Assembly: GCF_000005825.2 (NCBI RefSeq)
Contig: NC_013791.2
Coordinates: 3,658,001-3,722,000, forward strand
Reading direction: 5' to 3'
DNA length: 64,000 nucleotides
From: Alkalihalophilus pseudofirmus OF4
GTDB lineage: Bacteria; Bacillota; Bacilli; Bacillales; Bacillaceae_D
The position numbers and the translations under genes were made by a program. This document shows, piece after piece, positions 6,753 to 17,582 of the stretch. The notes below the pieces were generated by a model, which saw only the letters and a list, made by a program, of their open reading frames with translations, did not search any database and was not told where the DNA came from. How positions within the stretch are numbered: position 1 is the first letter of the stretch; every line of letters starts with the position of its first letter.

Positions 6753-6939
6753 ATTGCGCCGGTTCAGACGATAATTGCGTTGGTCGAAGCGCTGTATGCG
6801 CCATTTATACTCGCTTTTGCGTTAATTGACCAGCTAATTGCGTCACTCTGTGCGGATTGCGCCGGTTCACGCTATTATTGCGTCGCTTCGCAATTGTTAT
6901 GCGTCTACTCCGCTCATAATTGCGCCCATTCAGTCCTCA
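6753..6939. repeat. phased 21-bp repeat array, locus A (nine units)
   Basis: Nine degenerate units of consensus ATTGCGYCNGTTC plus about eight variable bases. The GCG cores are at 6756, 6777, 6798, 6819, 6840, 6859, 6880, 6901 and 6922, giving steps 21-21-21-21-19-21-21-21. It fills most of the 411-bp gap between rpmE and tdk. Loci B and C have the same layout. Function unknown. Confidence 0.8.
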
Positions 6940-6966
6940 CAAATCCCGCTTTACCCGCACCATGTG

Positions 6967-7002
6967 CAAAAAAAACAGGCAAGTGCAGTGCGCTTGCCTG
7001 TT
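6967..7002 (-). terminator. rpmE terminator
   Basis: On the minus strand ACAGGCAAG pairs with CTTGCCTGT and is followed by eight T residues, just past the rpmE stop. Confidence 0.9.
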
Positions 7003-7014
7003 CGCATATCCAGT

Positions 7015-7260
7015 TTACTTCATGTTGTATTTCTTCTTGAAACGATCAACACGTCCACCAACATCGTTAAGCTTCTGCTTACCAGTGTAGAATGGGTGCG
7101 AATCTGAACTGATCTCAACTTTTAGAAGCGGGTATGTGTTACCATCTTCCCACTCAATTGTTTCAGCAGAACCTTTAGTAGAACCGCTTAGAAACTTAAA
7201 ACCAGTACTTGTATCCATGAAAACCACTTTTTGATATTCTGGGTGAATACCTTGTTTCAT
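7015..7260 (-). CDS. rpmE: ribosomal protein bL31, type B (zinc-free)
   Basis: 50S subunit protein of 81 residues. It begins [10 protein letters not shown] and has the L31 signature [11 protein letters not shown]. The CxxC zinc pairs of the usual RpmE are absent; [10 protein letters not shown] and the insert [14 protein letters not shown] mark the type B (RpmE2/YtiA) form. It nevertheless occupies the housekeeping rpmE place between rho and tdk. ATG 7260 is chosen because AAGGAG lies nine bases upstream, whereas it touches the alternative ATG 7269. No Zur-box-like palindrome was seen upstream. Confidence 0.9.
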
Positions 7261-7437
7261 TGATTTCATCTCCTTCCGCCCTGAATCTCTTCGAAACAGA
7301 GTTATCTAATCACACATGACGAAATTATATCAAGCCAAGCTTCGTTTTGCAACTGTATTTTCGATGATTTTATACGTTGTTACGCACGATTCTTCATAAA
7401 ACCTCATCATAGCAGTTTTCTTCATCATCCATTTACA

Positions 7438-8712
7438 TTATTTTCTTCGGCTCGCCCCTGACATATCTTTTTCCATTTCGCTGAAAAAGTCAGCATTCGT
7501 CTTCGTATCTTTCACCCGCTTAATGAATTGATCGACAAAATCATGCGAATCATTCATTGTCTTACGGATCGCCCATAGCTTGTCTAACTGATCTTTTGGC
7601 ATAAGAAGCTCTTCTTTTCTTGTACCCGAACGGCGGATATCGATTGATGGGAAGATACGGCGCTCAGCCAATTTACGATCAAGATGAAGCTCCATGTTCC
7701 CTGTTCCTTTAAACTCTTCATAAATGACATCATCCATGCGCGATCCTGTTTCTACAAGAGCCGTAGCAAGGATGGTTAAGCTTCCGCCTTCTTCAATATT
7801 ACGCGCAGCACCGAAGAAACGTTTAGGACGATGGAACGCAGCCGGGTCAATACCACCGGATAACGTACGTCCGCTTGGCGGGATGACTAAGTTATAGGCA
7901 CGTGCAAGACGAGTGATGCTATCCATTAAAATGACAACATCTTTACGATGCTCAACCAAGCGCATCGCGCGCTCAAGCACTAGCTCAGCAACTTTAATAT
8001 GATTTTCCGGAACCTCATCAAATGTTGAACTGACGACTTCGCCTTTTACCGAACGCTCAATATCGGTTACTTCCTCAGGGCGTTCATCAATTAACAGTAC
8101 GATCAATTCCACATCAGGGTGGTTCTCAGCAATACTGTTGGCTACTTCTTTCATAAGAGATGTTTTACCAGCTTTTGGGGGTGCAACAATCAATCCACGC
8201 TGTCCGAAACCTACAGGAGAAATCATATTAATGATACGAGAAGATACTCGGCCTGGAGCTGTCTCAAGTTCAATTTTTTGTTCAGGGTATAAAGGTGTTA
8301 AGGCTGGGAAATGAGGACGTTCCTTCGATGTTTCAGGTGCATCGCCGTTTACTGCTTCTACATGCAGAAGCCCGTGGTAACGTTCGTTTTCCTTAGGAGG
8401 TCTTACTTTACCGGATACCTTGTCTCCGTTACGCAAGTCGAACCTGCGAATTTGAGAGGCTGAGATATAAATATCTTCAGAACTTGGCATGTAATTAATT
8501 GGTCTTAAGAAGCCAAAGCCTTCAGATTGAATGATCTCAAGGACACCTTCCATAAACATCAAACCATCTTTTTCAGCTTGTCCTTTTAAAATCGCGAAAA
8601 TAAGTTCACGCTTTGTAAGTTTACTATAATAAGAGACTTTGTATTGCTTAGCTAACTCATAAAGCTCTTTTAGCTTCATTTTTTCTAAATCTGCAATATT
8701 GACACTGCTCAT
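7438..8712 (-). CDS. rho: transcription termination factor Rho
   Basis: Hexameric RNA-dependent ATPase that ends transcription at C-rich unstructured RNA. 424 residues with no large insertion. N-terminal Rho-N helices (about 5-45), an RNA-binding OB fold containing GFGFLRP (about 55-120), P-loop APPKAGKTS (about 177-185), Walker [11 protein letters not shown] and the conserved [10 protein letters not shown]-loop region. Start 8712 has a TGGTGG-type site upstream. The 280 bases upstream contain three 15-bp direct repeats that may matter for its expression. Confidence 0.96.
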
Positions 8713-8821
8713 TATTCCACCACACTCTAATCATGATAAAAGCAGAATCCTTTTTAGAAGGATGTAGTAGTATAAGTAAAAGATCCGTACTTTTTTCGAA
8801 CTAATAAAAATACTTTGTTCT

Positions 8822-8866
8822 ATTACATTAATATAAATTACATTAATATAAATTACATCAATATAA
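8822..8866. repeat. three tandem 15-bp AT-rich repeats upstream of rho
   Basis: ATTACATTAATATAA occurs at 8822-8836, 8837-8851 and, with one change (ATTACATCAATATAA), 8852-8866. They lie 110-155 bases before the rho start, between the glpX terminator and rho. Confidence 0.85.
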
Positions 8867-16440: not shown

Positions 16441-16500
16441 GCGATCGACTCCTCTACTTTTCATCAAAATGTATTTTCCCCTAAAAAGGTCAATAAAATA

Positions 16501-16548
16501 AAAAAAACAAAAGCGACAGCTCACCCTAAATAGGGGGCGCACTTTTGT
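16501..16548 (-). promoter_or_regulatory. pyrG attenuator terminator
   Basis: On the minus strand ACAAAAGTGCGCCCCCTA pairs through ACAAAAG(T/C)G...CTTTTGT with the downstream arm and ends in a long T run. The upstream arm contains GCGCCCCCTATT, a pyrimidine stretch complementary to a poly-G 5' end. In B. subtilis low CTP lets polymerase add extra G residues at a GGGC start, and this G tract pairs with such a stretch and blocks the terminator. The same parts are in place here. Confidence 0.8.
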
Positions 16549-16582
16549 TTTGGTTATAAAATATGCATTTGCTTTTAATAAA

Positions 16583-16622
16583 GCCCAAAAATGATTCTAC
16601 CTAGTTCAGAGACAGAAGTCAA
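16583..16622 (-). promoter_or_regulatory. pyrG promoter with GGGC start site
   Basis: TTGACT (16622-16617), 17-base spacer, TAGAAT (16599-16594), seven bases, then GGGC beginning at 16586. The GGGC initial sequence is what B. subtilis pyrG uses for CTP-sensitive reiterative transcription. Confidence 0.82.
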
Positions 16623-16650
16623 GCCTCTGTTAAAAAGACTGAAAATGCAA

Positions 16651-17154
16651 TTAACGTTCTTCGTCCTCTTCTACCTCTTCATCATCATCAAAGTCCGTAT
16701 CGAGATCTTCTTTGTCAGTGAAGTCAGCATCTTCTTCATCGTCATCATCTGCATCTTCTTCATTAGAGATCTCATCTAGCTCGTCCTCTAAGTCTTCAAA
16801 CTCATCGTCAAAAACTTCTAGATCATCGTCTAAATCCTCATCGTCACTCTTTGCTTTTTTACGAGGATTAACTGGTGAAGTAATCTCTTCTTCTGATTGC
16901 TCATGAGGGTACCAGCTTTTAAGGCCCCAGTTGTTATCACCAAGCGTTAAAAAGCGGCCATCGATGTTTAAATCCGTATACAAAAATGACATACGCTGAT
17001 TCACTTCAGCTTTTTTCATTCCCTTAATTTCTGAAATCTCTTTAACTAAATCAGTGAAATAATAAGGCTGGCGCTTTTCTTTCATTAAAGCATAAGCGAC
17101 TTCAACCATTGACAGCTCTTGGATCTCTTCCTTTTCCATCTCGCGTAGGTTCAA
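16651..17154 (-). CDS. rpoE: DNA-directed RNA polymerase delta subunit
   Basis: Gram-positive RNA polymerase accessory protein that promotes transcript release and recycling. About 167 residues: an N-terminal globular HARE-HTH domain (1-90, with FYTDLNIDGRF-like LYTDLNIDGRFLTLGDNNWGLKSWYP) and a long, almost purely Asp/Glu C-terminal tail. Start is uncertain: TTG 17154 gives the family-like MNLREMEKEE with AAAGG ten or so bases upstream; GTG 17163 almost touches the AAAGGAC. Upstream of pyrG as in B. subtilis. Confidence 0.92.
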   Translation of the reverse strand: MNLREMEKEEIQELSMVEVAYALMKEKRQPYYFTDLVKEISEIKGMKKAEVNQRMSFLYTDLNIDGRFLTLGDNNWGLKSWYPHEQSEEEITSPVNPRKKAKSDDEDLDDDLEVFDDEFEDLEDELDEISNEEDADDDDEEDADFTDKEDLDTDFDDDEEVEEDEER

Positions 17155-17395
17155 CGTAAGCACGTCCTTTCAGCATTTCTTGCATCTATTGCTTATTAAA
17201 TATTGGCATAAAGTTCATACCTTTCATTATAAACACATTTCATATAAATATGCTAGATTGAAGACGAAAAAGTATGAGAGACATTTTAATAGAATGAAAA
17301 TGAACAAAAAGACAGTCTGCTGACTGCCTTTTTGAGTGATTCGCCTTGTTGACTGAGCGCTTGCTATGAGGGCCGGCGCAAGGGCTGCTTGTTCA

Positions 17396-17582
17396 ATTGC
17401 GCCGATTGAGAATATATATGCGTCAGTCTCCCGCTGATATGCGCCGAAGGTTCGAGTTATTGCTTCCATTCAGAGCACAATTGCGTCCAATGAAGTTGAT
17501 TGCGCCTGTTTGTGGCGTAATTGCGTTCCTTCATATGCGGATTGCGTCTGTTCGATGCATAATTGCGCCGTTCAGCGGGTGC
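17396..17582. repeat. phased 21-bp repeat array, locus C (nine units)
   Basis: GCG cores at 17399, 17420, 17441, 17462 (GCT), 17483, 17502, 17523, 17544 and 17565: steps 21-21-21-21-19-21-21-21, identical to locus A although the bases between cores differ. It lies between rpoE and icmF and directly abuts the repeat at 17586. Confidence 0.82.

Follow-up and report, generated by a model that had tools for sequence, protein, structure and literature searches.

The 64-kb window analysed here, the whole stretch of A. pseudofirmus OF4 DNA under study, carries three arrays of short, regularly spaced motifs, which raises the question of what these arrays are. All three were re-found at the coordinates and with the steps given in the original prediction. 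Array A (6753..6939, plus strand) and array C (17396..17582, plus strand) each have nine units with steps of 21, 21, 21, 21, 19, 21, 21 and 21 bp, and array B (14595/14596..14782, plus strand) has eight clear units from 14617 preceded by a weak first unit at 14596. Our reservation concerns this weak first unit (GTGGCG), which is doubtful and to which the 22-bp first step of array B belongs. The 19-bp unit is unit 5 in each case (6837..6855 in array A, 14680..14698 in array B and 17480..17498 in array C, all on the plus strand). Shuffling the mononucleotides of the window 20 times produced no chain of at least four cores, and Tandem Repeats Finder at default settings reported none of the three arrays. 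Open reading frames running across array A (112 aa) and array B (104 aa) were judged incidental.

The same architecture recurs across the chromosome: the element of ~187 bp with nine short motifs is present in dozens of copies. We counted 63 arrays in the fetched stretches of the OF4 genome, using a chaining score that penalised a 19-bp step less than steps of 18, 20, 22 or 23 bp and left the position of the 19 free. The exact nine-unit form with steps of 21, 21, 21, 21, 19, 21, 21 and 21 bp accounts for 37 of the 63, six more lack one end unit and are otherwise standard, 13 combine a 19-bp step with other irregularities, and seven have no 19-bp step. Searches of the whole genome gave 163 matches to a three-core 21-bp pattern (up to two mismatches), against 8 for the reversed pattern, and 52 to a four-core pattern spanning the 19-bp step (up to three mismatches), against 2; these lists are incomplete, nine sampled 20-kb stretches having yielded one extra array (1.10 Mb) and the interval 1.731-1.751 Mb two extra complete ones. 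The original observation is thereby confirmed on a much larger scale than the three arrays first noted. A pattern cluster at 489,281 was judged to be due to chance.

In an alignment of 56 arrays all nine units point in the same orientation. The units are position-specific, with u1 and u8 tending to TTGTAT and u2 and u7 to TATGCG, and their consensus follows a mirrored order. Covariation between mirrored units was dropped as support: four of 72 tests fell below 0.05, which is the chance level, the strongest GCG covariation test was that of u6-u9, which is not a mirrored pair, and more information is shared by u3-u7 and by adjacent units than by mirrored pairs. The dinucleotide step at unit positions 4-5 is CG (334) or TA (64) in 398 of 504 units, and CA and TG together occur there 44 times against 137 expected under independence, a deficit that is largely due to the concentration of TA in u1 and u8. 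The cores are under constraint. In the full-length orthologous pairs available for the 56 aligned arrays (26 with strain G040 and 29 with A. marmarensis, G001), cores differ by 0.062 (G040) and 0.061 (G001) substitutions per site, spacers by 0.139 in both comparisons, and 40-bp flanks by 0.107 and 0.108, respectively. Of the three arrays in the window, B and C have orthologues in both G040 and A. marmarensis, and the array A locus in A. marmarensis holds a shorter array with six units in chain. Spacers diverge faster than flanks, which counts against the platform explanation that we prefer below. Across the 56 arrays the 80-bp flanks share almost no sequence, with two weakly conserved columns only. 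A coding origin was rejected: in the heptad frame, two of the first three codons have third positions that rank with the best-conserved letters, and the reading frame is lost at the 19-bp step.

A/T-rich steps recur every 10.3-10.4 bp in the arrays. The WW power at 10.3 bp is 14.5, compared with 1.5 after shuffling, a peak that is partly inherent in a repeat that fits 16 turns into 166 bp. The half-unit (one-turn) harmonic ranked first among six in 39 of 60 arrays taken from 23 other Bacillota groups, and no lower than second in 55 of them, and it is likewise seen in an actinomycete repeat (L166). The suggestion that the element is bent DNA survives in part: the A/T periodicity fits bendability, while curvature through A-tracts was rejected, A/T runs of at least 5 being depleted (0.73 per array vs 1.45 in shuffles). 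The 19-bp step had been taken for a defined phase change, and here the opposite may hold. At 10.3 bp per turn four 21-bp steps drift by +56 degrees and a single 19-bp step resets the drift, so that the 19 may restore register. Such a reset is not general, because pure 21-bp arrays are commoner, the spacing in some genera is 20 bp, the 19-bp step is missing from G002, a member of the same genus (an apparent one vanished once the units were aligned on the near-palindromic core), and register wander was smaller than for permuted steps in only 22 of 37 arrays. Mean steps across relatives are biased, as the source patterns demand a 19-bp step.

The preference for particular spacings extends across the order Bacillales. 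TGCG arrays at 21 bp were found in 89 of 397 genomes and 55 of 135 genera, the genome count including some coding-looking matches that were kept in (21 bp is seven codons), while a 21,21,19,21 stretch was found in 19 of the 397. When the same 130 genomes were compared by spacing, arrays were present at 21 bp in 32, at 20 bp in 17 and at 24 bp, the sole off-helix spacing examined, in two. The reversed-pattern control is not a clean null in these order-wide searches because TGCGT units contain GCGT. Unit sequences are genus-specific, such that the arrays of relatives are alike in layout and different in letters; Lederbergia, Cytobacillus and others have long homogeneous arrays. Many of the 14 non-Bacillota matches inspected by eye appear to be coding, simple-repeat or high in G+C. 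Matches in Bacteroidia (L172 and L202) and Cytophagales (L195) have ~40% G+C and four units each, and L170, assigned to Halorhodospira, combines 37% G+C with an array that looks genuine and may be a contig of Bacillota that was binned wrongly.

The behaviour of the arrays in close relatives bears on two alternative explanations. If the array were a mobile element of the non-autonomous kind, its iterated sites being bound by the transposase or integrase that moves it, this would account for dispersed copies of one fixed architecture, for their patchiness across genera, for the 10 of 51 sampled A. marmarensis arrays that match no fetched OF4 (G000) array record, and for the absence of the array from one strain in two of six chosen region pairs of OF4 and G040. 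However, for the other 41 A. marmarensis arrays the surrounding DNA does match a fetched OF4 array record, and the six region pairs contain no clean empty site: four show unit-wise or partial losses, those of 40, 103 and 145 bp being whole units, and the two without the array lie amid rearranged DNA. Sequence beyond the units is unconserved, all 52 four-core matches lie outside the two small contigs, phage and plasmid collections contain no match to array A, and no viral contig carries the exact spaced pattern with the 19-bp step (which recovers 15 of 56 known arrays). The earlier suggestion of mobility is not supported, and we regard it as distinctly unlikely. A selfish or neutral minisatellite, functionless and kept alike by slippage and gene conversion, would suit the unit-wise deletions, the genus-specific units and the long homogeneous arrays of Lederbergia, Cytobacillus and others, yet in OF4 the spacers are locus-specific while short cores are conserved between orthologues, the nine-unit form predominates and units differ by position, and 24-bp arrays are nearly absent. 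We regard this explanation as unlikely.

Genomic location brings in two further alternatives. Among 60 arrays the neighbouring genes are convergent at 26, tandem at 31 and divergent at three (three further arrays have no called neighbour), and the gene on the u9 side is directed into the array in 47 of the 60. Next to u9 of array B a scan found a terminator-like stem with a T-run (14802..14838, plus strand; two stems, one nested inside the other, against 0.5 expected), which by eye is A-rich on its left and so may also serve the minus-strand gene; next to u9 of array A a possible terminator-like stem (6963..7002, minus strand) was read by eye only, and the consensus terminator scan found none there. 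The orientation of the u9-side genes favours an RNA-level element, such as an antisense readthrough terminator, a Rho site or a small-RNA array. However, the RNAalifold consensus of 54 arrays (two of the 56 left out) is essentially unstructured on both strands (~-0.3 on plus, 0 on minus), no Rfam family reaches the gathering score at the arrays, and RNA has no need of helix-following spacing; we hold an RNA-level role to be highly improbable. Alternatively, the array could be a BIME-like supercoil element, a favoured site of gyrase wrapping and action at gene ends, the places in which positive supercoils build up, with no need for a dedicated protein. Gene-end and convergent placement, the 10.3-bp A/T alternation, the pyrimidine-purine steps and the 187-bp length all favour this, as does the parallel with E. 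coli REPs, which PMC3733652 describes as gyrase targets, adding that supercoiling may be relieved when REPs at the 3' ends of ORFs are cleaved. Conservation of the TGCG-core letters and genus-specific units nonetheless go beyond what a general preference for wrapping would require. Moreover, pattern-detectable arrays are patchy (21 bp in 55 of 135 genera), although gyrase is, to our knowledge, universal, and we hold this explanation to be unlikely. The arrays are unevenly distributed over the chromosome (p 0.005; the largest gap, 997 kb, was never matched in 2000 uniform simulations), as tested on 61 positions with the clusters at 16,882 and 489,281 omitted and the array at 2,017,690 added. 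Mirrored clustering about ori and ter was dropped after array positions had been set against GC skew: its sign changes between 1.62 and 1.73 Mb, which puts most of the 1.67-2.11 Mb cluster on one replichore.

The explanation that we prefer, and to which we give an even chance, is that the array is a cis-acting chromosomal platform for an oligomeric sequence-specific protein. Constrained cores, the nine-unit form at dozens of loci and the spacing of two helical turns support the original prediction on this point. Nine sites of the same orientation, about two helical turns apart, would lie on one face of the DNA; the putative protein would occupy them cooperatively and probably bend or wrap the 187 bp, and the 19-bp step would hold the sites in register. 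Judging from the location of the platforms beyond gene ends, the most likely role of the complex is to organise the nucleoid, to constrain supercoils or to insulate adjacent transcription units, convergent ones in particular. More tentatively, a chromosome-organising system could be common to many Bacillales and to one family from a different order of the class, in which a fast-evolving oligomeric wrapping protein binds dispersed intergenic TGCG arrays at 20-21 bp and co-evolves with them, giving each genus its own units. We found no description of such arrays in the open-access literature. If real, this would be a widespread nucleoid or gene-boundary system of spore-formers, overlooked because letters vary by genus and mainly the spacing is common; the arrays would be ready bait DNA for a protein search and would provide a natural setting in which to test how DNA and protein co-evolve and how helical phasing works in vivo.

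How does such a platform compare with known systems? Unlike curved DNA with phased A-tracts, the arrays are depleted in A/T runs of at least 5. Octamers of the Lrp/AsnC type and LrpC of B. subtilis wrap DNA through helix-phased contacts. REPs and BIMEs, as described in PMC3733652, resemble the arrays in their many dispersed intergenic copies, mostly between convergent or same-direction genes, as is the case here. However, REPs are palindromes of 20-40 bp with sequence tags, whereas the arrays consist of non-palindromic direct units at helical spacing, and no palindromic stem-loop unit emerged from the RNAalifold consensus of 54 arrays. The arrays share with bcr1 and other bacterial MITEs, as the same source presents them, the character of short dispersed non-coding elements, but MITEs bear terminal inverted repeats, which were not seen at the arrays (80-bp flanks of 56 arrays, units all one way). 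In pSK41 parC, as PMC9426499 describes it, 20-bp direct repeats lie about two turns apart and the bound ParR oligomer seeds a solenoid; repeats and spacing vary among ParR-parC families, which do not bind the noncognate sites of other families. The arrays are likewise series of direct repeats at ~20 bp, but while parC is usually a repeat series upstream of parM, here 63 arrays are dispersed over the chromosome.

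The three predicted arrays were borne out at window positions 6753-6939 (A), 14595-14782 (B) and 17396-17582 (C) with the predicted steps, although the first unit of B is weak, and 20 shuffles of the window gave no chains of four or more cores. Across the whole genome (G000; three contigs totalling 4,249,248 bases, one of them 3,858,997 and the largest) a three-core 21-bp pattern with up to two mismatches matched 90 times forward and 73 times in reverse, whereas reading it backward gave 4 and 4; a four-core pattern spanning the 19-bp step matched 28 and 24 times (2 and 0 for its backward control). 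These matches form 62 clusters, three inside the window. We fetched 55 stretches around all clusters except the one at 489,281, judged to be chance (one stretch holds no cluster). With the window included, these stretches contain 63 arrays: 37 with the exact nine-unit spacing, six lacking one end unit, 13 combining the 19-bp step with another irregularity and seven without it. They are spread irregularly on the chromosome: a 1-Mb gap spans 2.10-3.10 Mb, where the pattern lists are empty and four 20-kb samples (at 2.2, 2.4, 2.65 and 2.9 Mb) are also free of arrays. Within G000 contig C1 positions 3358100-3361200 two partial arrays, of four units (-) and five units (+), adjoin on opposite strands; such an opposed pair is also present in Alkalihalophilus marmarensis.

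Aligning the 56 arrays that have the 19-bp step in register shows that each unit position has its own consensus: ATTGTATnTTTTCAA (u1), TATGCGTC (u2 and, identically, u7), ATTGCGCGG (u3), ATTGCGTCGGTTGA (u4), ATTGCGTCAATCT (u5, 19 bp), ATTGCGCCGGTTCAA (u6), ATTGTATC (u8) and ATTGCGCC (u9). While all units share one orientation, the unit types follow a mirrored order, 1-8, 2-7 and, less clearly, 3-6 and 4-5. Covariation reached p < 0.05 in four of 72 tests: u1-u8 (p 0.011), u2-u7 (p 0.007), u3-u5 and u6-u9 (p 0.007). Since the non-mirrored pairs u3-u5 and u6-u9 are among these four, we dropped covariation as support for the mirrored arrangement. Positions 4-5 read CG or TA in 398 of 504 units; CA and TG, each one change away from these, occur at a third of the frequency that independence predicts, and the main cause is the concentration of TA in u1 and u8.

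The array cores are under constraint. Over 26 orthologous pairs between G000 and another strain of the species (G040), differences per site were 0.062 at core positions 1-5, 0.139 at spacer positions 13-18, 0.107 in the 40-bp flanks and 0.041 in DNA more than 100 bp away; over the 29 full-length pairs of 30 with A. marmarensis, the corresponding values were 0.061, 0.139, 0.108 and 0.047. For each relative, 56 arrays were tried against 20 (G040) or 40 (A. marmarensis) stretches, which had been picked for containing arrays, so the comparison is uninformative on absence. In the reverse comparison, 41 of 51 A. marmarensis arrays lie within DNA matching a fetched G000 array record, and the remaining 10 have no match. 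The substitution rate within orthologous arrays seems raised: one pair (L086/L127) is 77.5% identical, yet its immediate upstream 40 bp are identical. In six chosen regions that differ between G000 and G040, G000 is shorter by 103 bp (five units), 145 bp (seven) and 40 bp (two), a fourth region is 69 bp shorter in G040, and in two further regions G000 has no array and the surrounding DNA is rearranged or diverged. We read the three G000 deficits as losses via recombination between units; in the 103- and 145-bp cases the other strain is shown to have the nine-unit form.

The four-core pattern, run against a named collection of 84,980 species, found 57 stretches, mostly from Alkalihalophilus, Alkalicoccobacillus, Lederbergia, Bacillus coahuilensis and Cytobacillus. 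Robertmurraya, Evansella, Pontibacillus and Psychrobacillus each contributed a single stretch, and 14 stretches are non-Bacillota by title. The Bacillota arrays shown have different unit sequences, yet keep [AT]TGCG[CT] cores and 21-, 20- or 19-bp steps. G002, a genome that the search tool's grouping assigns to the same genus as G000, has 26 matches to a different, TTTCGCGCGAAA-like unit pattern that is absent from G000 and A. marmarensis; with both strands read, 20 of its 46 chains consist of five units spaced by 21 bp, in many cases with a unit that looks fixed immediately upstream, and the 19-bp step is not required. Of 397 genomes of the order, 89 (55 of 135 genera) carry five TGCG cores spaced by 21 bp, with one mismatch, and 19 (15 genera) carry five with one 19-bp step. 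An even sample of 130 genomes of the order gave 21-bp arrays in 32, 20-bp arrays in 17 and arrays at 24 bp, the control for off-helix spacing and coding repeats, in two, both resembling coding hexamers. Among 121 genomes of the class nine match at 21 bp; apart from G000, six of eight come from a single family, and two or more of the others appear coding. Strict 20-bp-step arrays in six genomes of the order (G097, G066, G108, G116, G128 and G137) are in some cases perfectly homogeneous and in others have free spacers as in G000. L170, a contig of 37% G+C catalogued under a Halorhodospira MAG, carries an array of seven units that appears intermediate between the two Alkalihalophilus types, and is perhaps a misbinned Bacillota contig. 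Candidate four-unit TTGCG arrays lie on MAG contigs from Bacteroidia (L172, L202) and Cytophagales (L195), with a G+C content near 40%.

A/T-rich steps in the arrays are periodic, peaking at 10.3-10.4 bp (power 14.5; shuffles 1.5) above a power of about 7 at 20.6-21 bp. A two-turn repeat need not have such a half-unit harmonic. It ranked first of six in 61 of 86 arrays from the four-core collection search and the order-wide 19-step search; 60 of these come from 23 other Bacillota groups, where it took the top rank in 39 and one of the top two ranks in 55 (arrays within one group not being independent), with a median rank of 1 in 12 of the 23. The exceptions are Evansella and G014 (rank third), and of three non-Bacillota repeats it is absent in L173 and L207 and present in L166. 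A/T runs are depleted in arrays, and a consensus RNA fold was found on neither strand of 54 arrays. We read the array DNA as selected for bending around, or lying along, a putative protein.

A simple ORF caller (at least 110 codons; ORFs overlying an array disregarded) places a gene on both sides of 60 of the 63 arrays: 26 of these gene pairs are convergent, 21 + 10 tandem and three divergent. The expected numbers, taken from gaps of at least 150 bp among 270 pairs of adjacent genes in 316 kb of this genome, are 9.6, 39.0 and 11.4 (chi-square p 1.6e-8). For 47 of the 60 arrays, the u9-side gene is directed into the array. Array B is followed by a terminator-like stem; a terminator scan beside array A found none. 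The two smaller contigs hold none of the 52 four-core matches (chance 0.007), array A had no match in phage and plasmid collections, and the exact spaced pattern, which recovers only 15 of 56 known arrays, was not found in viral contigs. Two TGCCAGAACAGTCGCCTC copies lie closely downstream of array C (17588-17605 and 17708-17725), and similar words (GCGACTGTTCTGG, CTAGACA) stand at some G002 loci, perhaps a second dispersed repeat family. Rfam matches in the window, both on the minus strand, are an L31-Firmicutes ribosomal protein leader (7270-7301) and a c-di-AMP riboswitch (31274-31439).

The simplest account of the arrays is a cooperative binding platform for a putative oligomeric protein that would co-evolve with its sites, because unit number is fixed, cores are constrained, spacers are free, spacing is two helical turns and the letters are genus-specific. 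The odd 19-bp step of the original prediction stands, but it may do the opposite of the phase change proposed for it: with 10.3 bp to the turn, four steps of 21 bp would drift by +56 degrees and a single 19-bp step would cancel this drift, and the odd step would therefore hold the sites on one face. This register reading fits the G000 species and several long arrays. We treat it as a species-level feature, since no more than 22 of 37 arrays show less wander than permuted steps do, and pure 21- or 20-bp arrays are common. From location we infer a role as nucleoid scaffold, in supercoil control or in gene-end insulation.

Among the papers that searches of an open-access library listed, no title or abstract opening describes such arrays; the subscription literature may contain a description. 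REP/BIME elements resemble the arrays in location but are palindromes (PMC3733652). ParR-parC centromeres are, like the arrays, direct repeats (20 bp in pSK41); their repeats are family-specific and bound as a solenoid, but they usually lie upstream of parM (PMC9426499).
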